Shown in pieces: positions 21,024 to 42,277 of a DNA stretch of 42,277 nt; positions within the stretch are counted from its first letter, which is position 1, and the number at the start of each line of letters is the position of its first letter. The DNA is from Deltaproteobacteria bacterium RIFOXYD12_FULL_57_12 (GTDB lineage: Bacteria > Desulfobacterota > Desulfobulbia > Desulfobulbales > BM004). The DNA is taken from the NCBI GenBank assembly GCA_001799275.1, contig MGTE01000042.1, positions 1 through 42,277 of the forward strand. Reading direction: 5' to 3'. A program made the position numbers and the translations under genes. The notes beneath the pieces were generated by a model, which worked only from the letters and a program-made list of their open reading frames with translations, did not search any database and had not been told where the DNA came from.

Positions 21024-21875
21024 TCAATAAAACTCCTGAAGCGTCCTCTCGATCTTCGACGAATCGAAAACCTGATGCACGAGCGGCCCGGCGGTCAGCA
21101 TCGGGATGCGCTCCTCAAAGGTAGGGCGGTTATTCCGGTAGATGATGCCGATCGGGATGCGGTCGCCCCATTCGAGTGCCCTTGAAAATGCCGCGATACG
21201 GTCGGCGGGATCATACTCCGGCTCGATGTGATACACGCGCTTCCGATACCACTCGTAGGTATTAACCTTGTTGAACGTGACACAGGGTTGAAGGATGTCG
21301 ATGAGGGCAAATCCCTTGTGAACCATGGCTTCCTTCATCAGACCCTTGAGGTGCGCCGTGTCGGCTGCGAAGGACCGGGCCGCGAAGCCGCAGTCGAGCG
21401 CCACGGCGAGAGCCATGGGATTGAACTGCTCGGAGATTACGCCGAAGGGGACGTTCTTGGCCTTTGTTCCTTCGCCGGTTGTGGGAGAGGGCTGTCCCTT
21501 GGTCAACCCGTAGATCTGGTTGTCGTGGACAAAGAGCTTTACATTGATATTTCGGCGCATGGCTGCCATGAGATGGTTGCCGCCCTCGCCGTAGCAGTCG
21601 CCATCGCCGGTGGTGACGATCACCGGCATGGCATGGTTCGCGAGCCTGATGCCCGTTGCAACCGGCAAGGCCCTGCCGTGCAGGCCGTTAAAGGTGTTGC
21701 CTCGGGTATAGTGCGGCAGCTTTGCCGCCTGGCCGATTCCCGATACCACGGTGATCTGATGCGGTTCAAGCTGAAGCTCTACTAAAACGTCCTTGAAGGC
21801 TTTCAAGATCGCAAAGTTACCGCATCCCGGACACCACGCCGGTGTCTGGCCTTTATATGTTCCCAAGGCGATCAT
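21024..21875 (-). CDS. 2-oxoacid:ferredoxin oxidoreductase, beta subunit
   Basis: This 283-residue subunit binds thiamine diphosphate. The conserved WCPGCGNFAIL stands at residues 14-24. The TPP/Mg motif GDGDCYGEGGNHLMAA is near 92 and is followed by FVHDNQIYGLTKGQ; the HYTRGN..NGLHGR segment is also typical. The complex oxidatively decarboxylates a 2-oxoacid (2-oxoglutarate, pyruvate or a related acid) to acyl-CoA and reduced ferredoxin in anaerobes. The beta-subunit type is the KorB/PorB class, but the substrate cannot be fixed. Its ATG lies inside the end of the alpha gene (23-bp overlap), with AGGAGAGG as ribosome site. Confidence 0.93.
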   Translation of the reverse strand: MIALGTYKGQTPAWCPGCGNFAILKAFKDVLVELQLEPHQITVVSGIGQAAKLPHYTRGNTFNGLHGRALPVATGIRLANHAMPVIVTTGDGDCYGEGGNHLMAAMRRNINVKLFVHDNQIYGLTKGQPSPTTGEGTKAKNVPFGVISEQFNPMALAVALDCGFAARSFAADTAHLKGLMKEAMVHKGFALIDILQPCVTFNKVNTYEWYRKRVYHIEPEYDPADRIAAFSRALEWGDRIPIGIIYRNNRPTFEERIPMLTAGPLVHQVFDSSKIERTLQEFY

Positions 21876-23580
21876 GAACCTCTCCTATCAGCTCTTCAAC
21901 CGTGAACGGCCGGCCATCGTACTTATTGATCTGGATTTTGAACTCAAAGCCGGTCGCGGCGCGCAGCAATCTGCTGAACTGACCGGTGGCGTTATGTTCG
22001 ATGCACAGGGGAAGTTTTGTCTTGCGCAGGAATGATACATAATCAAAGAGCCCCAGATCCGGCAGGGGGAAAACCTCACTGAAGTGAAGCATGGCAATGC
22101 TCATTGATTTTGCCAACTCATCGACGGCTTCCTTTATTATGCCATATGTTGAACCCCAACCGGTGAGGACCACATGCGCCTCCTGGTCTCCATAAAAGTC
22201 AGGTGGCGCGATCTCGGTTCTGATGAGCGGAAGTTTTTTGAGGAGACGCTTTTCGACCATCCTGATCCGAGTGGCGGCATCCTCGATAATATGGCCTTCC
22301 TCATCATGCTCATCGCTGTCAACGACCACGACATGGCTGGCGTCTCCCGGCACCGCGAGGGGAGAGATTCCCGTCTCGGTGTAGGCATAGCGCCTATAGT
22401 GCTGCTGGTTTTTGAAGGCATCTCCCCGTAGTCGGTAATCAATGTATCGTACCTGGTTCAGATCAAAGCTATCGACTGTCCATTGAGAATCGGCGAGATA
22501 GGTGTCAAAAAGGATGAAGACGGGAATCTGGTATTTTTCCGCGATATCAAAGGCCTTGTTGGTGAGATGGAATGCCTGGCGTGGCGTGCCGGGCGCAAAA
22601 ATGACGCGAGGGAATTCGCCATGCCCCGCGGACAGAAGAAACTCGAGATCGCCCTGCTCGGTTCGTGTCGGGAGGCCGGTGGCCGGACCGGGACGTTGCC
22701 CCATGGCAATTACGATCGGCGTCTCGGTCATGCCGGCAAGCGAAAGACCTTCCACCATCAGCGCAAAGCCGCCGCCCGAGGTGCCGGTCATGGCGCGTAC
22801 CCCCGCGTAGGAGGCGCCCAGAGCCATGTTGATCGCGGCAATCTCGTCTTCGGCCTGTTCGACGATAACGCCGTACTCACTCTCCGTTGAGGCGAGATAG
22901 TTCATGATCCCCGTGGACGGCGTCATGGGGTAAGCCGAATAGAACCTGCATCCCGAAGCAAGCGCTCCGAGTGCGATGGATTCGACCCCGCCGACCAGCA
23001 TCCGCTGTTGCACTTCATCGACGGCAACGGCAAAGGTACAGGTGTCGCAATGCAGTCTCGCATACTCGTACCCTGCCCGTACGGCGTTCTTGTTGGCATG
23101 AACAACATGATCGCCCTTGTTCTTGAACGTGTCGGCGATGAGCTCAAGAATAAGGTCCGGTTCCAGGCCGAGCATGCCGAGCACCGCGCCGGTAGCAACC
23201 GTATTCACCATGATCTTGTCGCCATCCTGTTCCAGAGCCAACTTCTCAAAGGGGATATCAAGAAAGGCTGGGCCACCGTTCTTGAACTTGAGCGCCGAAG
23301 CGTCATAGATAATCCTGCCGTTCACGGTCAGATCCTTCTCATGGCGGGTGATGCTTTCGCGGTCGAGCGCCACGAGAATATCGACCTTGTTCCGTGAAGC
23401 GGCAAGGGGCTGGCTCGAAAACCGCAACTGGTAGAAGTTGTGCCCGCCGCGGATGCGTGACTCATAATCCTGGTGGGAAAAGACATGATACCCGGCGCGG
23501 ACGAATACTCGTCCCAGGGCGTCGCCGATGGTCTGGATACCCTGCCCGGCTTCACCGCCAATTTTAATGGAGTAATCCAT
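21853..23580 (-). CDS. 2-oxoacid:ferredoxin oxidoreductase, fused gamma-alpha subunit
   Basis: This 575-residue subunit has the gamma domain at the N-terminus (about 1-180, IGGEAGQGIQTIGDALGR and DYESRIRGGHNFYQLRFS) fused to the alpha domain (about 195-575, GCRFYSAYPMTPSTGIM, VVEQAEDEIAAINMALGASY, TGTSGGGFALM). This is the common two-gene arrangement of the 2-oxoglutarate/2-oxoacid enzyme, paired with the beta gene just downstream. No ferredoxin domain is fused, so a separate ferredoxin must accept electrons. The ribosome site is AGAGGG. It lies 28 bp after a small gene of unknown function, likely in the same operon. Confidence 0.93.
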   Translation of the reverse strand: MDYSIKIGGEAGQGIQTIGDALGRVFVRAGYHVFSHQDYESRIRGGHNFYQLRFSSQPLAASRNKVDILVALDRESITRHEKDLTVNGRIIYDASALKFKNGGPAFLDIPFEKLALEQDGDKIMVNTVATGAVLGMLGLEPDLILELIADTFKNKGDHVVHANKNAVRAGYEYARLHCDTCTFAVAVDEVQQRMLVGGVESIALGALASGCRFYSAYPMTPSTGIMNYLASTESEYGVIVEQAEDEIAAINMALGASYAGVRAMTGTSGGGFALMVEGLSLAGMTETPIVIAMGQRPGPATGLPTRTEQGDLEFLLSAGHGEFPRVIFAPGTPRQAFHLTNKAFDIAEKYQIPVFILFDTYLADSQWTVDSFDLNQVRYIDYRLRGDAFKNQQHYRRYAYTETGISPLAVPGDASHVVVVDSDEHDEEGHIIEDAATRIRMVEKRLLKKLPLIRTEIAPPDFYGDQEAHVVLTGWGSTYGIIKEAVDELAKSMSIAMLHFSEVFPLPDLGLFDYVSFLRKTKLPLCIEHNATGQFSRLLRAATGFEFKIQINKYDGRPFTVEELIGEVHDRLGNI

Positions 23581-23608: not shown

Positions 23609-23863
23609 CTAGAACTGCTGCCCCTCGATATTCTTTTTAAGTTGAGCGATCTCTAGGCCGAGGGAGACGCATTGCTTGCCTTCCATGCAGGCATCGGCAT
23701 CCGGTATTTCAAGGTGATGCTTGAGTTCGTGGCCGCCTTTTTTCAGGTCGACTATCCATGTCTTCTTTGGCGTGTCGAATTCGACGGCAATGTCGAGGCC
23801 GCATTCGCCTATCTCCGGATAAAGGGCGGTATTTTTTTTGCACAATTCTTCTTTCGAATGCAT
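23609..23863 (-). CDS. Small conserved hypothetical protein
   Basis: This 84-residue soluble protein has four cysteines (LC, ECG, DAC, QC), a strand-rich core AVEFDTPKKTWIVDLKKGGHELKHHLE and a helical end. I do not recognise the family. It is the first gene of the 2-oxoacid oxidoreductase operon with a good ribosome site (AGGAGG), so it is probably made with that enzyme; a metal-binding or accessory role is only a guess from the cysteines. Confidence 0.7.
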   Translation of the reverse strand: MHSKEELCKKNTALYPEIGECGLDIAVEFDTPKKTWIVDLKKGGHELKHHLEIPDADACMEGKQCVSLGLEIAQLKKNIEGQQF

Positions 23864-24177: not shown

Positions 24178-24672
24178 TTAATATTCGTCCAGATGATGCC
24201 ATTCAGCGTTTTCAAGCCAATTTCCCGGCTCCGGTCTTGCAACGAATTCGGCAATATTTTCCATTATCCGGAAATGCTTTTCTTCTTCACCGGCAAGGCG
24301 CAAGAATATTTGTTTTGCCTCTTCCTCTCCAACCTCGGCGGCCTTGTCCAGATAGAATTTCCGACTCAACTCCTCAATGGCCATTGCTTTCCGGTATGCT
24401 TCGAGATCAGAGGAATCAAAGCGTATTTCAGTTTTTTCTTCCTTCATTCTGATAAAAACGTTTTTTACATTCCCCAGGACTGTTGTTGTCGCAGGCGGAG
24501 ATTTTCCGGCATGTTTCTGCAGTTGTGCAATAATGTTGTAATGCTTCACTTCTTCGTCGGCCAGCATGGTTAGAATAGTCTTAATGCCTTCCACTTGGCA
24601 CTTATCTGCAAGTTCACGGTAATAGTTCTCTCCGTCTTTCTCCATCCGCATGGCATATTCAAAGATGTTCAT
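24178..24672 (-). CDS. Rubrerythrin-type ferritin-like diiron protein
   Basis: This 164-residue four-helix-bundle protein carries two diiron half-sites: E15 with EEVKH (40-44), and E100 with EEKH (130-133). It lacks the C-terminal rubredoxin domain of classical rubrerythrin. Such proteins reduce peroxide or handle iron in anaerobes. It follows desulfoferrodoxin by 36 bp and ends the oxygen-defence run that starts at the flavodiiron protein. The ribosome site is GGGGAGAG. Confidence 0.88.
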   Translation of the reverse strand: MNIFEYAMRMEKDGENYYRELADKCQVEGIKTILTMLADEEVKHYNIIAQLQKHAGKSPPATTTVLGNVKNVFIRMKEEKTEIRFDSSDLEAYRKAMAIEELSRKFYLDKAAEVGEEEAKQIFLRLAGEEEKHFRIMENIAEFVARPEPGNWLENAEWHHLDEY

Positions 24673-24708: not shown

Positions 24709-25086
24709 TTATCCTTTCCACAGACCATGCAGATTGCAATATTCCCGGGCGGTTATCTTGCCCGCGTCGATTTTGAACACGGCCTCCGCCGCTTTGCCAG
24801 GGCTGAGGAATCGCCGGTATACCCGGCCGTCATCAGTAATTGCCTCAATCCACTCAATATAATGTTTGTCTTCCATGGGATGGGCGACGCTGCCGACCTT
24901 TACCTTGAAGCCGCCCTCGATCTTTTCGATCACCGGGATATGTTTTTCTTTTGCCGCGTCAACGGTGTTCTCGGCAAACAGTTTCATCGGCGCGCCGCAA
25001 CAGACAAGCTCGCCATCTCCAGCGTGCAGCATTTCCACGATATTTCCACAGATTTCACATTTATAGATTTGCATTTTCTTGGTCAT
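24709..25086 (-). CDS. dfx: Desulfoferrodoxin (superoxide reductase)
   Basis: This 125-residue two-domain superoxide reductase has an N-terminal desulforedoxin iron site with C10, C13, C29 and C30. The C-terminal catalytic iron site has H49, H69 (AHPM), H75 (HYIEWI), C117 and H120 (CNLHGLW). All ligands are present. The enzyme reduces superoxide to peroxide without making oxygen, in the cytoplasm. It lies between the thioredoxin-like selenoprotein and the rubrerythrin-like protein, which could remove the peroxide formed. A GGGAG ribosome site supports the start; a second ATG at codon 5 is possible. Confidence 0.96.
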
Positions 25087-25132: not shown

Positions 25133-25699
25133 TTAAAGAAGACGATACGGAGAGGCCCGTTTTGCCCATGGACTCAAGGGATACTCTTTCAGCAAATGTT
25201 CGTAGGCTTCCTTCAGGGGCAGCGCGTTCTTCGTGCTCTTGTAGCGGCTGACACCTGCCAGAAAAACTGCCTCCGGGGCAGAATCGCTCCCAGGACTTTT
25301 ATCCACTATTTTTTCAAAAAAAGTGATCGCTTCCTTGAACTCACCAGCGTCGTAATGCATTTTGCCGATACCGAGAACTATTGCGGAAATCAGCTCTTCT
25401 GGTTCCAGAAAACCGATTGACCGATGATGCTCTTTGCCATTTTTATCAAGAATCAGCAGAGCCGGGGTCCAGTTGATACTGAAATCCTTTGCCGGTTGTT
25501 CAGCGGAACCTATGCGTAAGGGGACAACCTTTTCATTGATGAAGGTAATGACTGCTTCGTTGGGGTACGTAACTGCACCCATCTGTTGACAGCCAATTCA
25601 CTGTGGGTTGAAAAAATCCAGGAAAATTGCTTTGTTTTCCGCTTTTCCTCTGCTCAGGGCCTTGTCGAGCACTGTTTCCCACTGAATTTGTTTTGCCAT
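25133..25699 (-). CDS. Thioredoxin-like selenoprotein (UxxC) with C-terminal TPR-like helices
   Basis: The frame runs 188 residues from an ATG with a strong ribosome site (AAGGAGAAG) and contains one in-frame TGA at codon 34 (25598-25600). The TGA stands exactly at the first position of a thioredoxin active site: FLDFFNPQ-[TGA]-IGCQQM, so decoding as selenocysteine gives UIGC. Upstream and downstream segments belong together: a thioredoxin-like fold continues (NEKVVPLRI, WTPALLILDKNGKEHH) and TPR-like helices follow (YDAGEFKEAITFFEKIVDKS). A hairpin fitting the bacterial SECIS rules starts 18 bases after the TGA. Placed between flavodiiron protein and superoxide reductase, it is probably a redox protein of oxygen defence. 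The alternative, a truncated pair of reading frames, is unlikely given the motif. Confidence 0.85.
25563..25580 (-). promoter_or_regulatory. Predicted bacterial SECIS hairpin
   Basis: On the mRNA, bases 21-38 counted from the U of the UGA form GGGUGC-AGUUAC-GUACCC: a 6-bp stem (one G-U pair) with a 6-base loop. A G is the second base of the loop and the loop lies about 24-29 bases after the UGA, as required by the bacterial SECIS model. It is the recognition element for SelB. Confidence 0.75.
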
Positions 25700-25777
25700 G
25701 GCGCCTTCTCCTTGTAAATGTTTCAAGAAATAACAACTCGAATGAAACTGCGTGCTCTCCTTCCGTGGTCTGTCGGA

Positions 25778-26992
25778 TTATGCACCGTTCTGCTTTGTGG
25801 CAAAAGGGCATTGGTCCGCAACTGAAGAGCCAAATTCATAGCATCCATCAAGGGACTTGTGATCCGGATTCCAGAGTGTCCGGATGCCCTCGTTTACCAA
25901 CGCAAAACCTGCCTCATGCAGTCGACTGCTGATAATTTTTATGCCCTCGCCACTCCAGCCGTAAGAGCCGAAAGCCGCCGCTTTTTTTCCCTTGAACCCC
26001 AAGCCCTTTATTTCCTCAAGGATCGCGGCCACCGACGACAGAATGCCCCGGTTGATGGTCGGAGACCCGACAAGGATTGCCTTGGATCGAAACACTTCCG
26101 TTAGGATGTCGTTGGCATCGCTTCGTGCCGCATTATACAGTTTCACGGTAACCGCCAGATCAGAGGATCTGATTCCCGCCGCCAGGGTCTCCGCCATTAT
26201 CCTGGTGCTGTTCCACATGGTGTCATAGATGATCGTGATCTGGTTTTCCTGGTAATCATCAGCCCAGGCCGCATATTGATTGACGATCTGCAATGGGTCC
26301 TCACGCCAGATGATGCCGTGGCTCGGACAGATCATCTTCACCGGCAGGTTCAGTCCGACGAACTCCTTGATTTTTTTTGTCACCTGCCGGCTGAATGGCG
26401 TGAGGATATTGGCGTAGTATTTGATGCATTCCTGATACAACTCGCAGCGGTCAACCTGATCGTTAAACATATGCTCAGAGGCCAGGTGATGGCCAAAGGC
26501 GTCATTGCTGAACAGGATCTGCTCTTCGGTCAGATAGCAGAACATGCTGTCCGGCCAATGCAGCATGGGCGCTTCTATAAAAACAAGCTCTTTGCCGCCG
26601 AGCGAGAGGCGATCGCCGGTTTTGGCCACCTGGAAATTCCAGTCCTGATGATAATGGCCCCTCAGCGACTTCACTGCATTTGCCGTGCAGTAAATCGGCG
26701 TTTCCGGAATCATCTTCATGAGCGCGGGCAACGCACCGCTGTGGTCCGGCTCCGCGTGGTTGGTGATAACAAAATCAATTTTAGCCAGATCAATCTCATT
26801 GGCGAGGCGGCGGATGAATTCATCCGCAAAGGGAGCCCAGACCGTATCGATCAGCGCGATCTTCTGGTCCCGGACGAGATAGGAATTGTAGGTGGAGCCC
26901 CGGTGGGTGGAGTACTCCTCACCATGAAATTTTCTGATTTCCCAGTCTTTTTTGCCAACCCAGGTGATGCTTTCCGTAATCGCGAAACTCAT
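25778..26992 (-). CDS. Flavodiiron protein (FprA/Roo type)
   Basis: This 404-residue protein has an N-terminal metallo-beta-lactamase-like diiron domain (about 1-245) with ligands H79, E81, D83 and H84 (HAEPDH), H145 and D164. A C-terminal flavodoxin domain (about 250-400: YDTMWNSTRIMAE, GSPTINRG, GSYGWSGEG) follows. It reduces oxygen to water, or nitric oxide to nitrous oxide, in the cytoplasm of anaerobes, taking electrons from rubredoxin or a similar donor. It is the first gene of a run with the thioredoxin-like selenoprotein, desulfoferrodoxin and rubrerythrin-like protein. The ribosome site is GAGGG. Confidence 0.95.
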   Translation of the reverse strand: MSFAITESITWVGKKDWEIRKFHGEEYSTHRGSTYNSYLVRDQKIALIDTVWAPFADEFIRRLANEIDLAKIDFVITNHAEPDHSGALPALMKMIPETPIYCTANAVKSLRGHYHQDWNFQVAKTGDRLSLGGKELVFIEAPMLHWPDSMFCYLTEEQILFSNDAFGHHLASEHMFNDQVDRCELYQECIKYYANILTPFSRQVTKKIKEFVGLNLPVKMICPSHGIIWREDPLQIVNQYAAWADDYQENQITIIYDTMWNSTRIMAETLAAGIRSSDLAVTVKLYNAARSDANDILTEVFRSKAILVGSPTINRGILSSVAAILEEIKGLGFKGKKAAAFGSYGWSGEGIKIISSRLHEAGFALVNEGIRTLWNPDHKSLDGCYEFGSSVADQCPFATKQNGA

Positions 26993-27069: not shown

Positions 27070-28305
27070 TCACAACTGCTTTGAAATTGACATACAAAAG
27101 ATTGTTCCCTGCCGGGGAGCCGGCTCGGTCCATACCTGGCCCTGGTGCTGTTCCGCTATATCCTTGACGATGGACAGACCCAGCCCAGAACCGGAAACGT
27201 TTTTGGCTGATTCCAACCGGATAAACTGTTTGAATATCTTGCGGGTATCTTGCAAGGCTATTCCGACCCCGTCATCCTGAACACAAAGAATATGATGCCT
27301 CCTGTTTTCACCATATCCGATCTCGATTGCGGACATCTCTTTACCGCCGTATTTCAGGGCGTTATCAACCAGATTTCTCAAGGCCCTCAGGATGGCCAGG
27401 CGGTCCGCCCTGATCTCGGGCGGATCTCCAAGAACAGCTAATCTTGTACGACGCTGATCAAACCGGCCGGCAAATTCCTCTCTGATATTCTGGAAAAGAT
27501 CCCTCAATCTGACCGTTTCAATTTTGAGGGGTACTTCTCCGGTCAAGATGTACTCATTGATCTTGTCAACCAGGTCAACAATCTCTCCGGAGGCTTTCAG
27601 GAGCTGCTTGCAATAAGTTCCACCATTGTTGTCGAGGATATCCCGATAACGCTCCCGGAGGCGTTTTGTCAGACCGTGGACGACCAGGGCTGGATTTTTC
27701 AGATCATGGGAGATCGACCATGCGAACATCTTGATTTTTTCACTACTGTTTTTGAGCGCCATCGCTACCTTCTCGCTCTCGGTAACATCAATTACTGCAA
27801 TACAGCAGTGGTTGGGTTCGCATGCCCAGCTCGGCAGGATTGCGCTTTTCAATTGGGCATGCAATCGATCTCCATTGCCCTTAATCAGCCTGATCACGCA
27901 GCTCTGTCGATTGCCAGTCTGAAAGACCAGTCGCAGGTGCTTGAAGAAGGCAGCCCTGTCCTCCTGGTCTATGAACAGGGGGAATGAACTTTTTCGCAAG
28001 GCGTCTCTTTCTGTGGCCAGCATGGCGGCACCGAAGACGTTAACCGCCTGGATATTCCCTTTCCTGTCAAGGGTGAAATAGCCGATTGGCGCAAAATCGA
28101 AAAGAGCTCTATGCCGGTCACGGGCCTCCACAAGCTCATCCTGTGCCCGCCTCAGTTCTTCGTTCTGCATCTCCAGTTCGAGTTGGCGCGTCCGGAGTTC
28201 GTGAACCAGATCCCGGACAGCCGATCCCGTTATTTTCCCGATTGTCGTATCGCCGGCCAGCCATTTTGCCTCGGCCATATTTCGAGGTTTGTTGGATAAT
28301 TTCAT
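27070..28305 (-). CDS. PAS-domain sensor histidine kinase
   Basis: This 411-residue cytoplasmic kinase has no membrane segment: a coiled coil (about 30-65), one PAS domain (about 66-175, FAPIGYFTLDRKGNIQAVN), a dimerisation helix with H200 (SISHDLKNPA) and a HATPase_c domain with N box (LRNLVDNALKYGG), G1 (DDGVGIAL) and G2 (GSGLGLSIVKDIAEQ). All kinase boxes are present. No response regulator is adjacent; the sigma-54 activator at 600 or another regulator could be the partner, but nothing shows this. It follows ftsH on the same strand, separated by a palindrome-ended element. The ribosome site is weak, so the start is provisional. Confidence 0.88.
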   Translation of the reverse strand: MKLSNKPRNMAEAKWLAGDTTIGKITGSAVRDLVHELRTRQLELEMQNEELRRAQDELVEARDRHRALFDFAPIGYFTLDRKGNIQAVNVFGAAMLATERDALRKSSFPLFIDQEDRAAFFKHLRLVFQTGNRQSCVIRLIKGNGDRLHAQLKSAILPSWACEPNHCCIAVIDVTESEKVAMALKNSSEKIKMFAWSISHDLKNPALVVHGLTKRLRERYRDILDNNGGTYCKQLLKASGEIVDLVDKINEYILTGEVPLKIETVRLRDLFQNIREEFAGRFDQRRTRLAVLGDPPEIRADRLAILRALRNLVDNALKYGGKEMSAIEIGYGENRRHHILCVQDDGVGIALQDTRKIFKQFIRLESAKNVSGSGLGLSIVKDIAEQHQGQVWTEPAPRQGTIFCMSISKQL

Positions 28306-30760: not shown

Positions 30761-31390
30761 TCAAAGCCTTCGCAGGGACTCCCGCAGATAGGACCGGTCG
30801 CCCAGCCTGTGCAAAAAAGGACCATGCGGCCCAATTTCCACTATGCTGATAGAGGCCACCGGCATACTGATGCGATCGCGAAAACGCCCTACGTCAATGC
30901 CCAGCAGCGAGCACAGCATGATTCGGATCGTGGCCTTATGAGAAACAACGAGGACATTTCCGGTCGTGCAGGTTTTCTCAATTTCCTCAAGCACCAGTGA
31001 ACTGCGGCGGGCAACCTCGATGCCTCTTTCCCCGCCGGTGGGAGCATTCCACCCCGGATCGGTTAGCCAGCGAACGTAGTCATCATGAAACTCGCGAGTA
31101 ATATCCTCGGGCTTTTTACCCTCCCATTGACCAAAAGCAATTTCGTGCAACCCTTTCTTGAGTTGGATTCGTACACCTGCCGCCTTGCAAAGCGGTTCGG
31201 CCGTGGCGACGGCGCGGCGCAGCGGACTGGAAAAAACAGCGGCCCATGGCAGAGATTTGTGCGCCTCGGCAAAATCCTCTGCCATCTGATACCCGGATGG
31301 GGTCAGGTCCGGGTCGAGAGTCCCGCAGTAACCGCCGGTTTGGCTGGCAGTAGTTTCTCCATGTCGCAGAAAATAGATGATTAAGCTCAT
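30761..31390 (-). CDS. Histidine phosphatase (phosphoglycerate mutase-like)
   Basis: This 209-residue enzyme of the histidine phosphatase superfamily has the RHG motif (FLRHGET, about residues 8-14), SSPLRRAVATAEPL, and the second catalytic histidine in VVSHKATIRIML. Members act on sugar phosphates, nucleotides or cofactors such as alpha-ribazole phosphate; the substrate is not evident. It is the last gene of the minus-strand run that begins at 36255, separated from the cardiolipin synthase-like gene by element B. The ribosome site is GGAGAGAG. Confidence 0.88.
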   Translation of the reverse strand: MSLIIYFLRHGETTASQTGGYCGTLDPDLTPSGYQMAEDFAEAHKSLPWAAVFSSPLRRAVATAEPLCKAAGVRIQLKKGLHEIAFGQWEGKKPEDITREFHDDYVRWLTDPGWNAPTGGERGIEVARRSSLVLEEIEKTCTTGNVLVVSHKATIRIMLCSLLGIDVGRFRDRISMPVASISIVEIGPHGPFLHRLGDRSYLRESLRRL

Positions 31391-39205: not shown

Positions 39206-40327
39206 ATGACCGGCATTGAAATAATTACTGTGGAAAGCAGAGCGGAGATCAGGGACTTCATTGACCTGCCGTGGCAAATTTATGCCGGGTACCCCCATTG
39301 GGTTCCCCCCATTAAAAAAGATGTTCGCCGGTTGCTGGATCCCCGCCAACACCCCTTCTGGGAGTTTTCCGAACGCATCCTCTTTCTGGCCCGGCGCGGC
39401 GCCAAGACGGTGGGAAGGATCGCGGGCATCATAGATCGCCATCATAACGAGTTCCACAACGAACAGATGGGCATCTGGGGATTTTTCGAATGTGGTGACG
39501 ATTCGGAGGTCGCGTCGTCTCTCTTCTCTGCCGTGGAGACCTGGCTGCGCCGCAAGGGCATGACCTTCGTGAGAGGCCCGCTCAATCCATCCATCAATTA
39601 CGAGGCGGGGTTGCTCATTGACGGCTTTGAGTATCCGCCTGCCTTAATGATGACCTACAATCCGCCGTACTATCCCCACTTGATCGAATCGTGCGGTTTC
39701 GCCAGAGAAAAGGACCTGTTTTCTTTCATGATAGACGGGGCTTATCAGCTTCCCGAGTGGATGGATAGTCTTGCTGCACGGCTGGCCCGCAAAAAAGGCA
39801 TTCACATCAGGCCATTTCGGGTAAAGGATCCGGTTCCTGAACTTGCCCTGGTTCGGGAGATATTCAACGACTGCTGGTCCGATAACTGGGGTTACGTCCC
39901 CTTGAGCGATCACGAGATACGTGAGATAGGAAGGGATCTGGTGAAAATTGCGGATCCGGACCTGGCTTTTTTTCTCTATTATGAGGATGAACCCGCGGGG
40001 GTCTGCGTGGTTTTGCCCGACATCAACCCGTTGCTCAAACGGTTCAACGGGAGCATCGGCCTGCCGGGTTTGTTGAAGTTTCTTCGCTATCGGCGGGAGA
40101 TCACCGGATTGCGGGCGATGCTCTTCGGTGTCAAGGAGAAGTATCGACAACTGGGGCTTCCTCTTCTGGCCTTCAGCCACCTGTATGAGGCTGCAAGGAA
40201 GAAGGAAATATACCGTTATATGGAGCTGGGCTGGACCCTGGAGGACAACGAGTCGATCAACTCCTTGCTAGAGGAAGCCGGTGCCAGAATTCACAAGAAA
40301 TATTGCATATATAGAAAGCCTTTATGA
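39206..40327 (+). CDS. GNAT-like acyltransferase-fold protein
   Basis: This 373-residue protein has an N-terminal segment (DLPWQIYAGYPHWVPPIKKDV), a mid segment RGPLNPSINYEAGLLIDGFEYPP and a C-terminal GNAT-like portion (FFLYYEDEPAGVCVVLPDIN, GVKEKYRQLGLPLLAFSHLY, MELGWTLEDNESINSLLEEAGA). Such long two-lobed GNAT relatives are common as hypothetical proteins and often stand beside lipid or polyketide synthesis genes. Acyl transfer is likely but not proved. It begins 6 bp after the SDR stop, suggesting coupling, with a weak ribosome site. Confidence 0.75.
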   Translation: MTGIEIITVESRAEIRDFIDLPWQIYAGYPHWVPPIKKDVRRLLDPRQHPFWEFSERILFLARRGAKTVGRIAGIIDRHHNEFHNEQMGIWGFFECGDDSEVASSLFSAVETWLRRKGMTFVRGPLNPSINYEAGLLIDGFEYPPALMMTYNPPYYPHLIESCGFAREKDLFSFMIDGAYQLPEWMDSLAARLARKKGIHIRPFRVKDPVPELALVREIFNDCWSDNWGYVPLSDHEIREIGRDLVKIADPDLAFFLYYEDEPAGVCVVLPDINPLLKRFNGSIGLPGLLKFLRYRREITGLRAMLFGVKEKYRQLGLPLLAFSHLYEAARKKEIYRYMELGWTLEDNESINSLLEEAGARIHKKYCIYRKPL

Positions 40328-40333
40328 TTACTA

Positions 40334-40495
40334 AGTACCCCCGGCCATAAATATGGGACGCATCGAGGATGTCGAGACAACCGGGATGCAAGGCGCGAGG
40401 AGCGCAGCATACCCAGGGTCTGTAAGCGACGAGCAACGCAGCAGGCCGGTTTGTATCGGCATCCGAATGCCACTGTAGTTATGAACGGGGGTACT
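40334..40495. repeat. Palindrome-ended intergenic element C (162 bp)
   Basis: The perfect 10-bp ends AGTACCCCCG and CGGGGGTACT extend inward with mismatches (CATAA/TTATG). The minus strand reads CTGCGTTGCTCGTCGC and GGTATGCTGCGCTCCTCGCG, a core similar to element A. It lies between the GNAT-like gene and the TTG start of the polyketide-synthase-like gene, only 39 bp before that start. Confidence 0.7.
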
Positions 40496-40534
40496 ACGAC
40501 AAGGGTATCGCATTCAAACGGAGGTCCAGGCAAA

Positions 40535-42277
40535 TTGGCTGAATATCGAGTTCCACTCATTGCTTTTGTCTGGCGGCCTGAAGAGATGATCCCGTCGGTG
40601 CTCCAAATGGCGCACCAAACAGGGAGCAGGACCATCTTCGATTTTTCCATGATGGAGGTCGAACCACTCTATTTGGCCTTGCAAAAAGCCGGCACCGCCG
40701 ACCTGCTCCGGGATATCAAGATCTCCGCCTCCGCCTTGATGGATCCTGCTTTGGAGCAGGTGCTGAGAAAAACAGGGGTCCAGAACATCTGGGTTGAATG
40801 CCACCCTGTTTTGTTCCGGGAAGATATCTCCATCTTTCTGAAGAGATTGAGGGATTTGTCGGAAGAGTACTGTCTCTTTCCCATCCTCGGGGATCTGGAT
40901 CTTCTGGCAGCGATTTTAACCGATAGCCCGGGAATCGGGCGTATTGTCCTGAAAGGGTGCGAGGCCTCCGGATTCGTCAGCAGCGAGACGACCCTGGCTT
41001 TCTATGCAGCAGTCAAGGAGAGAATGTCCAATGCAGGGCAAACCATGGACATCCTTATCTGGGGAAGCATCTTCACCCCTGAGGCGGCAGCGGCATTACT
41101 GTCCACCGGGGCCACGGGGATCGTCTTCGAAAGCCTCCACTGGCTGACAGACCTGGTTGGTGTTGATGATGCCCAACACCGGCTTCTCTCCAACCTCCGC
41201 CTGGATTCCACCGAGCTGGTCGGCCTCGACCTCCAGGTTCCATGTCGCCTTTTCAACAAGGGCAACTCCATTGCGTTCAGAGAGATCAGACAATTCGAAA
41301 ATTCGCTGTGCGGAGGAGCGATCACTCAGGAAAGCCGCCGTGCCTTTGCAGACCGGGTGAGTACCAGCTTCCTCCACCCTCTTGAGAGCCACTTCACCCC
41401 GGGCGAGCTCATCCCTCTGGGGGTGGAAACCGCATTTGCCGCGTCCTTTGCCGAACGTTTCGGAACGAAAACCGGGGAGGCCGTGCATTCCTTCATGGAG
41501 GAGATTCGCAGGCTATGCCAACTCGCTGAAAACAAAAAGGATTGCTTCCTGGACAGCCCTGTTGCAGCGGAGATGGGAACCCGATATCCCTTTATCCAGG
41601 GGGCCATGACCTGGATCACGGACATCCCCGAATTTGCATCTAGGGTTGCCGAGGCCGGCGGCTTGCCTACCATCGCCCTTGGCCTCATGAACGCGGAGAT
41701 CCTTGATAAGAGGCTGGGAACCCTGCCGGAGATCATGGCAGGACGCCCTTATGCGGTAAATATCGTGTCACTGGCGGAGAATCCTTTCAGGGAGACCCAT
41801 CTGGCCTGGATAAAAAAACACAAGCCCCGTTTTGTGGTAATCGCCGGCGGTGATCTTTCACCGTTAAGGGGATTGCTGGAATGCGGCCTGGAAGTCATAT
41901 ATATCGCCCCTGACGAGGCCCTGCTGCAGCTCGCTCTTGAAGCCGGCGTCCGCTACGTGATCTGCGAGGGATATGAGGCCGGTGGCCACGTGGGGCGCCA
42001 CAGCACCCTCACCCTGGCGCAAAGGGTACTGGACCTGAAACGACTCAAACCATCCCTGTTCGAGAATTGTCGCCTGATACTTGCCGGGGGAATCTTCAAT
42101 CGGGAGACCGCATTCATCGCCGCCATGCTTGGAGCGGATGGTATCCAGATGGGCACCGCGTATCTGGCCTGCCGGGAGATCATTGAAACAGGCGCCTTGG
42201 CAGCTCTCTATCAGCGGATGATCCTGGAATCGCCTCCGGGCGGCACAGTTGTTTCAGGCAGGAACACCGGGCTCCAG
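40535..42277 (+). CDS. Polyketide-synthase-associated protein with tandem nitronate monooxygenase domains (partial)
   Basis: This frame stays open for 581 codons to the right edge. It starts at TTG 40535 with GGAGG 10 bp upstream, reading LAEYRVPLIAFVWRPEEM. The second domain (from about residue 350) is a clear FMN-dependent nitronate monooxygenase barrel: GTRYPFIQGAMTWITD, EAGGLPTIALG, then CEGYEAGGHVGRHST, LAGGIFN and GADGIQMGTAYLA. The first 330 residues look like a decayed copy (LKGCEASGFVSSET, IWGSIFTPEAAAALLSTGAT, IVFES). In multidomain polyketide or polyunsaturated fatty acid synthases such a domain acts as enoyl reductase, and the protein probably continues into ketosynthase and acyltransferase modules outside the window. 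The upstream SDR, GNAT-like and transferase genes would serve the same product. Confidence 0.8.
   Translation, partial: MAEYRVPLIAFVWRPEEMIPSVLQMAHQTGSRTIFDFSMMEVEPLYLALQKAGTADLLRDIKISASALMDPALEQVLRKTGVQNIWVECHPVLFREDISIFLKRLRDLSEEYCLFPILGDLDLLAAILTDSPGIGRIVLKGCEASGFVSSETTLAFYAAVKERMSNAGQTMDILIWGSIFTPEAAAALLSTGATGIVFESLHWLTDLVGVDDAQHRLLSNLRLDSTELVGLDLQVPCRLFNKGNSIAFREIRQFENSLCGGAITQESRRAFADRVSTSFLHPLESHFTPGELIPLGVETAFAASFAERFGTKTGEAVHSFMEEIRRLCQLAENKKDCFLDSPVAAEMGTRYPFIQGAMTWITDIPEFASRVAEAGGLPTIALGLMNAEILDKRLGTLPEIMAGRPYAVNIVSLAENPFRETHLAWIKKHKPRFVVIAGGDLSPLRGLLECGLEVIYIAPDEALLQLALEAGVRYVICEGYEAGGHVGRHSTLTLAQRVLDLKRLKPSLFENCRLILAGGIFNRETAFIAAMLGADGIQMGTAYLACREIIETGALAALYQRMILESPPGGTVVSGRNTGLQ

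Follow-up and report, generated by a model that had tools for sequence, protein, structure and literature searches.

A gene on the reverse strand of MGTE01000042.1, the 42,277 nt contig of Deltaproteobacteria bacterium RIFOXYD12_FULL_57_12 that was analysed in its entirety (the window), in all likelihood encodes a selenoprotein oxidoreductase, with an in-frame TGA specifying selenocysteine (Sec) at the first active-site position of a thioredoxin-like domain (Table 1). The frame comprises 188 codons followed by TAA, and its sole TGA is codon 34. This reading of the codon is about as firm as sequence allows; the presence of Sec in the protein itself, the direction of its redox reaction, its electron donor and its clients are inferred. 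A first-pass annotation had proposed a thioredoxin-like UxxC selenoprotein here, the TGA standing where such proteins have their first active-site cysteine, within a run of oxygen-defence genes. The selenoprotein is supported by the Sec machinery of the host, by cysteine-containing homologues and by a conserved SECIS hairpin; the proposed context holds in the window and not around the relatives of the gene.

Table 1. Features of the window, with positions numbered from its first letter
Feature	Positions	Strand	Remarks
KorB, beta subunit	21024..21875	-	Identified from its position following KorA and its sequence, not by family scan
KorA, 2-oxoacid:acceptor oxidoreductase alpha subunit (fused type)	21853..23580	-	TIGR03710 over cut-off; recurrent neighbour
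84 aa conserved protein, no known family	23609..23863	-	Recurrent neighbour
Rubrerythrin-type ferritin-like protein, downstream	24178..24672	-	
Desulfoferrodoxin (superoxide reductase), downstream	24709..25086	-	TIGR00320 over cut-off
Selenoprotein gene, 188 aa with predicted Sec34	25133..25699	-	Thioredoxin domain approximately 1-107, TPR-like helical tail approximately 108-188
Codons 78-79, invariant Thr-Pro	25463..25468	-	Place of the cis-proline loop facing the thioredoxin active site
Bacterial SECIS upper hairpin GGGTGC-AGTTAC-GTACCC	25563..25580	-	6 bp stem, 6 nt loop, GU at loop positions 2-3
Codon 37 (TGT), predicted resolving cysteine of UIGC	25589..25591	-	Cys in all Sec forms
TGA codon 34, read as Sec	25598..25600	-	First position of the UIGC redox motif; Cys in genomes G288 and G015
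Ribosome-binding site AAGGAGAAGG before the true ATG	25704..25713	-	
FprA-like A-type flavodiiron protein, upstream, co-directional	25778..26992	-	No rubredoxin domain found

The start of the frame is well marked, as had been claimed from the strength of its ribosome site: AAGGAG lies ahead of the ATG, which begins 4 nt after AAGGAGAAGG. An SD-like stretch is found at this upstream start in 80 of 81 relatives, compared with seven of 81 at the internal ATG or Met codon. It is nevertheless the internal ATG that a standard ORF caller adopts, returning 25133-25582 for this gene, and the active site is lost as a result, just as the first-pass annotation had anticipated. Homology-like sequence had been noted on both sides of the TGA. 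Between the window and a relative 74% identical to it, 13 of the 20 changes in the 28 codons preceding the TGA are at third positions (four, three and 13 differences at codon positions one, two and three, respectively), the same coding-like pattern of divergence as is found downstream.

The TGA itself is widely conserved. With a cut-off of E at most 1e-15, a sample of 395 genomes from the phylum yielded the protein in 84, the matches mostly containing exactly one TGA, and it is present in 22 of 58 closer relatives, where every match contains one; the phylum sample and closer relatives together provide about 100 independent genes with TGA at the same codon. Homologues with the TGA also occur in a MAG labelled Nitrospirae (74% identical) and a Syntrophaceae MAG (L025, 43% identical). 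The latter shares the stretch with G374, a genome of the phylum sample, on which grounds the sampled phylum is taken as Desulfobacterota. Ninety-two loci were examined in addition to that of the window, and the Sec forms number 82, including the window gene. When these are aligned at codon 34, as the first-pass annotation had recommended, the TGA proves invariant, as do Cys at +3 and Phe at -5, and 64 of the 82 have the motif UIGC; homologues with Cys in place of Sec are found. Among 80 genomes scanned, SelB exceeds its cut-off in 61 of the 62 carrying the TGA form. The exception, G344, is a fragmented MAG (92% complete, 260 contigs), and its missing SelB is probably a matter of incompleteness. 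SelB fell below its cut-off in four of the nine genomes with TGA-free homologues.

Two sets of genomes show variation on this pattern. G288, holding the only Cys form of family f31 (L118), has no SelB over the cut-off, and G363, from the same genus, has both the TGA (L125) and SelB; the pair points to a recent replacement of Sec by Cys that went together with loss of the Sec machinery. Separately, two loci (L130 in G312:C2 and L131 in G386:C102) encode shorter paralogues of 155-159 aa, with the motif UGAC and an early TAG end. The full-length gene is also present in both genomes, and these additional copies may be decaying or specialised.

The host genome (3.84 Mb in 126 contigs, 90% complete) contains all four of the genes for Sec synthesis and insertion that were sought: selA (631 bits), selB (375.6 bits, over the cut-off), selC, encoding tRNA-Sec (74.8 bits, the only match above the gathering score of 47), and selD (348 bits; C112:10858-11784, L020). 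The last of these is itself a selenoprotein gene, a single in-frame TGA occupying its catalytic position (...RTCG-U-AAKIGP...), and gives the genome a further, independent Sec codon.

The hairpin that had been noticed following the TGA has the features of a bacterial SECIS element. Published criteria for such structures are a stem of 4-16 bp, a loop of 3-9 nt with G in its first two positions, a distance of 16-37 nt from the UGA and an MFE of at most -7.5 kcal/mol (PMC13188914). As RNA, the window hairpin is GGGUGC-AGUUAC-GUACCC; it starts 17 nt after the UGA, its loop lies 23 nt past the UGA, its energy is -8.4 kcal/mol as a bare hairpin and -10.4 kcal/mol for 45 nt, and it falls within all of these limits. 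An Rfam search of the window returned no match, and the element was tested from alignments. RNA folding finds this hairpin behind the TGA in one homologue after another, all six stem pairs being formed in 68 of the 82 Sec forms. Resampling of synonymous codons (500 times) gave a mean of 5.2 and a maximum of 12 fully paired genes, dealing the 3' arms out among the sequences gave at most 45, and sliding the 3' arm by 1-3 nt left none or one, so the amino acid sequence does not explain the stem. Loop position 2 is G in all 82 genes; 14 have no exact six-pair stem, and a shifted hairpin is possible in some of these. The threonine at +10 is encoded by ACG, the third base of which must be G for the stem to form, in 50 of 54 genes; in the remainder of these genes ACG accounts for 102 of 462 Thr codons. 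Compensatory pairs are also found (GAU with UAU, GGU with UAC, GAA with UUU), such that a change of Asp to Glu (GAU to GAA) is accompanied by one of Tyr to Phe (UAU to UUU) and pairing is kept. The RNA signal is thus strong enough to be accompanied by a residue change in the protein (Tyr to Phe), a clear case of an RNA element acting as a constraint on a protein. The hairpin is absent from the aligned Cys-form relatives.

Two explanations that dispense with Sec were set against these data. If the TGA were an ordinary stop, the 149 aa product from the ATG at 25582, which is what standard ORF calling yields, would be the real protein, and the upstream part a decayed remnant or leader. However, such a product would start too late in the fold to include strand 1, helix 1 or the active site, most relatives have no ribosome site ahead of the internal ATG, and 82 genes have retained the frame and the TGA, for the most part with the SECIS as well; given this conservation and the ribosome-site counts, the explanation is very improbable and was rejected. 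A single TGA in one MAG could be a sequencing error, or the code might have changed such that TGA specifies Trp or Cys, but the recurrence of the codon across independent genes is hard to reconcile with either. TGA is also a normal stop elsewhere in the window, for example in KorB, a kinase at 27070 and a gene at 30761, so the genetic code is not changed, and a Sec tRNA and SelB are present. This second explanation was therefore discarded as well, its probability being close to nil.

With the TGA read as a residue, Thioredoxin_2 (PF13098), Thioredox_DsbH and Thioredoxin_7 all match approximately residues 3-105, PF13098 being the best Pfam match (35.0 bits, gathering 27), and TPR_6 matches residues 109-138. 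An AlphaFold2 model made with 73 family members (pLDDT 97.4, pTM 0.92) predicts a thioredoxin fold, in which Sec34 follows the strand at 24-30 and precedes the helix at 35-44, Thr78-Pro79 lies just ahead of the strand at 80-84, in the place of the thioredoxin cis-proline, and long helices matching the TPR extend to the C-terminus. The best PDB folds found by Foldseek were a DUF255 domain, DsbD-gamma, YbbN/CnoX, DsbH and 2kuc, a disulfide isomerase of Bacteroides; by sequence profile the best PDB relatives were 2kuc and DsbD-gamma, the latter being the best with a name. Inspection of the N-terminus by eye revealed no hydrophobic signal, and no signal peptide or membrane part is visible, so the protein is probably cytosolic. 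In NCBIfam scans, no model exceeded its cut-off with the window protein, the Trx7/PDZ selenoprotein model staying under the listing threshold, and no dedicated model emerged for the 73 family members, which had low-scoring neighbours such as TsoB and DsbD.

The domain cd02953 is that of DsbD-gamma. Selenoproteins of a UxxC, Thioredoxin_2/DsbD-gamma kind have already been catalogued (PMC13188914, PMC1794560, PMC2398784). A 2006 survey listed a 'thiol:disulfide interchange protein' in Geobacter metallireducens, G. uraniireducens and Syntrophus aciditrophicus (PMC1794560), the GOS survey a 'Trx-like 2 (thiol disulfide interchange protein)' with UxxC, equated with cd02953 (PMC2398784), and catalogues of 2022 and 2026 a 'thiol:disulfide interchange protein' defined by PF13098 and UxxC, with WP_011366075.1 as its representative. 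The window protein has the PF13098 or DsbD-gamma-like domain, DsbD-gamma being its nearest named relative, and the UxxC motif, in the form UIGC, and the kind of host agrees, as with the homologue in the Syntrophaceae MAG. Agreement in domain, motif and type of host makes its membership of this known but functionally uncharacterised family very probable, the match being by these three features rather than by sequence. The catalogues mention no TPR tail, which the window protein possesses.

Other thioredoxin-like proteins are more distant. The C-terminal (gamma) domain of DsbD has the same fold (profile E approximately 3e-13, TM-score to the target approximately 0.67), but is a periplasmic domain of a membrane protein and has CxxC, whereas the window protein is small, contains a predicted Sec and a TPR tail and has no visible signal or membrane part. 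Selenocysteine thioredoxin (PF00085, UxxC, WP_010956703.1) shares fold and motif; the window protein differs in its extra TPR tail and in scoring below the cut-offs of the canonical thioredoxin model TIGR01068 (30.1 bits against 96.8) and, narrowly, of PF00085. Similarity to the VPGUxxT selenoproteins and TsoB is weak and confined to the thioredoxin part, the NCBIfam models scoring 31.8 bits against a cut-off of 805, 23.8 against 350 and 20.2 against 275, and their Sec motif or domain make-up is different.

The gene lies in a co-directional run with those for FprA, desulfoferrodoxin and the rubrerythrin-like protein, separated by gaps of 78, 46 and 36 nt, and the short gaps and shared direction make a common transcript in the window plausible. 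The oxygen-defence run of the first-pass annotation is to that extent real; the set is not, however, conserved around relatives, where KorAB is the recurrent neighbour instead. FprA was found near none of the 92 relative loci, and desulfoferrodoxin and rubrerythrin near two each, with one further desulfoferrodoxin in a closer relative (L177), so these genes were rejected as generally conserved partners. Neighbours were clustered using a support-based choice of ORFs, as choosing the longest was swamped by shadow ORFs in GC-rich loci. By this approach KorA and KorB each recur in 10 loci, nine of them co-directional, from about nine taxonomic families. KorA lies within about 6 kb in 10 of approximately 112 loci, compared with about 0.3 expected given that a fused KorA occurs approximately once per genome, an expectation that is rough, ignores relatedness and is affected by some of the searched genomes having been chosen with the neighbour known. 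No neighbour is common to all relatives among the loci examined. A cluster resembling response regulators also appears in 10 loci, mostly on the opposite strand, and was not counted as a link since this is a large common family.

Two further observations concern this neighbourhood. In the MAG labelled Nitrospirae, KorA (81%) and KorB (89%) directly follow the 74% identical homologue (L024:5001-5567), which means that either the genome is mislabelled or the cluster has been transferred. The 84 aa protein has conserved Cys residues, and its gene accompanies that of the selenoprotein in seven loci from different families, on the same strand every time and in several cases together with KorAB.

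The most likely function is that of a seleno-reductase which keeps oxygen-sensitive cytosolic clients reduced, reduction being the likeliest task for a protein in the cytosol of an anaerobe. SelB loaded with Sec-tRNA would bind the hairpin, and Sec would be inserted at position 34 in place of a stop. By thioredoxin chemistry Sec34 would then attack and Cys37 resolve, such that the UIGC pair would reduce disulfides or oxidised thiols via a mixed selenenyl sulfide, and the Sec-Cys selenenylsulfide left behind would be reset by a thioredoxin-type reductase; the TPR-like tail probably serves to dock client proteins. These clients would most likely be oxygen-sensitive cytosolic enzymes of anaerobes, with gene context pointing to KorAB as the best candidate, although confidence that KorAB is in fact the client is low. 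Enzymes of the KorAB type are oxygen-sensitive, so a link between the reductase and oxygen damage is still plausible, with the client and not the defence genes as the connection.

Other functions can be envisaged. The protein may resemble the chaperedoxins CnoX and YbbN, its TPR holding oxidised, unfolding clients while the UxxC motif reduces them before they are handed over to GroEL or DnaK. The order of domains, thioredoxin then TPR, is the same, Foldseek places the YbbN structures 3qou and 3qdn among its best matches over the full length, and the CnoX of Caulobacter is an active reductase (PMC6282202). Nevertheless, the TPR part spans approximately 80 residues in a protein of 188 aa, compared with approximately 285 aa for YbbN, the TM-score to YbbN is only 0.43, identity in the structural alignment is 13-15%, and the motif is UIGC with Sec, not WCG/XPC, making a function of this type possible but doubtful. 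Alternatively, the protein might be a repair or maturation factor specific to KorAB, acting with the 84 aa protein. The arguments for such a factor are that KorAB is the most recurrent co-directional neighbour, with KorA lying directly behind the gene even in the Nitrospirae-labelled MAG, and the recurrence of the 84 aa gene on the same strand. Yet approximately nine tenths of loci have no KorAB within 4-6 kb, and in several of the genomes that carry the selenoprotein no full-length fused KorA scored above the cut-off; a role this narrow appears unlikely. It is unlikely that both ideas apply together, that is, that these proteins constitute a seleno-chaperedoxin family of their own (a UxxC thioredoxin joined to a TPR), uncharacterised, found widely among anaerobes of the Desulfobacterota type and missed by current annotation models, which protects or repairs the oxygen-sensitive 2-oxoacid:ferredoxin oxidoreductase with the 84 aa partner. 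The more general seleno-reductase is preferred to these alternatives.

To the catalogued family the present analysis adds strong RNA evidence, a TPR tail, a broad distribution, an association with KorAB and the finding that no annotation model covers it. Roughly a fifth of the phylum genomes sampled carry the gene and NCBIfam has no model for it; with gene calling discarding the active site, many anaerobes are probably annotated with a truncated protein that has lost its redox centre. The association with KorAB offers a testable client for a class of selenoprotein that catalogues have carried for some two decades with no function assigned.

A search past the TGA-terminated ORFs of the window yielded no other convincing Sec gene. 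One long open frame behind a TGA (40325-40327), at 40328-42277 on the forward strand, looks like a separate large gene leaving the window and not read-through, and by eye resembles PfaD or nitronate monooxygenase.
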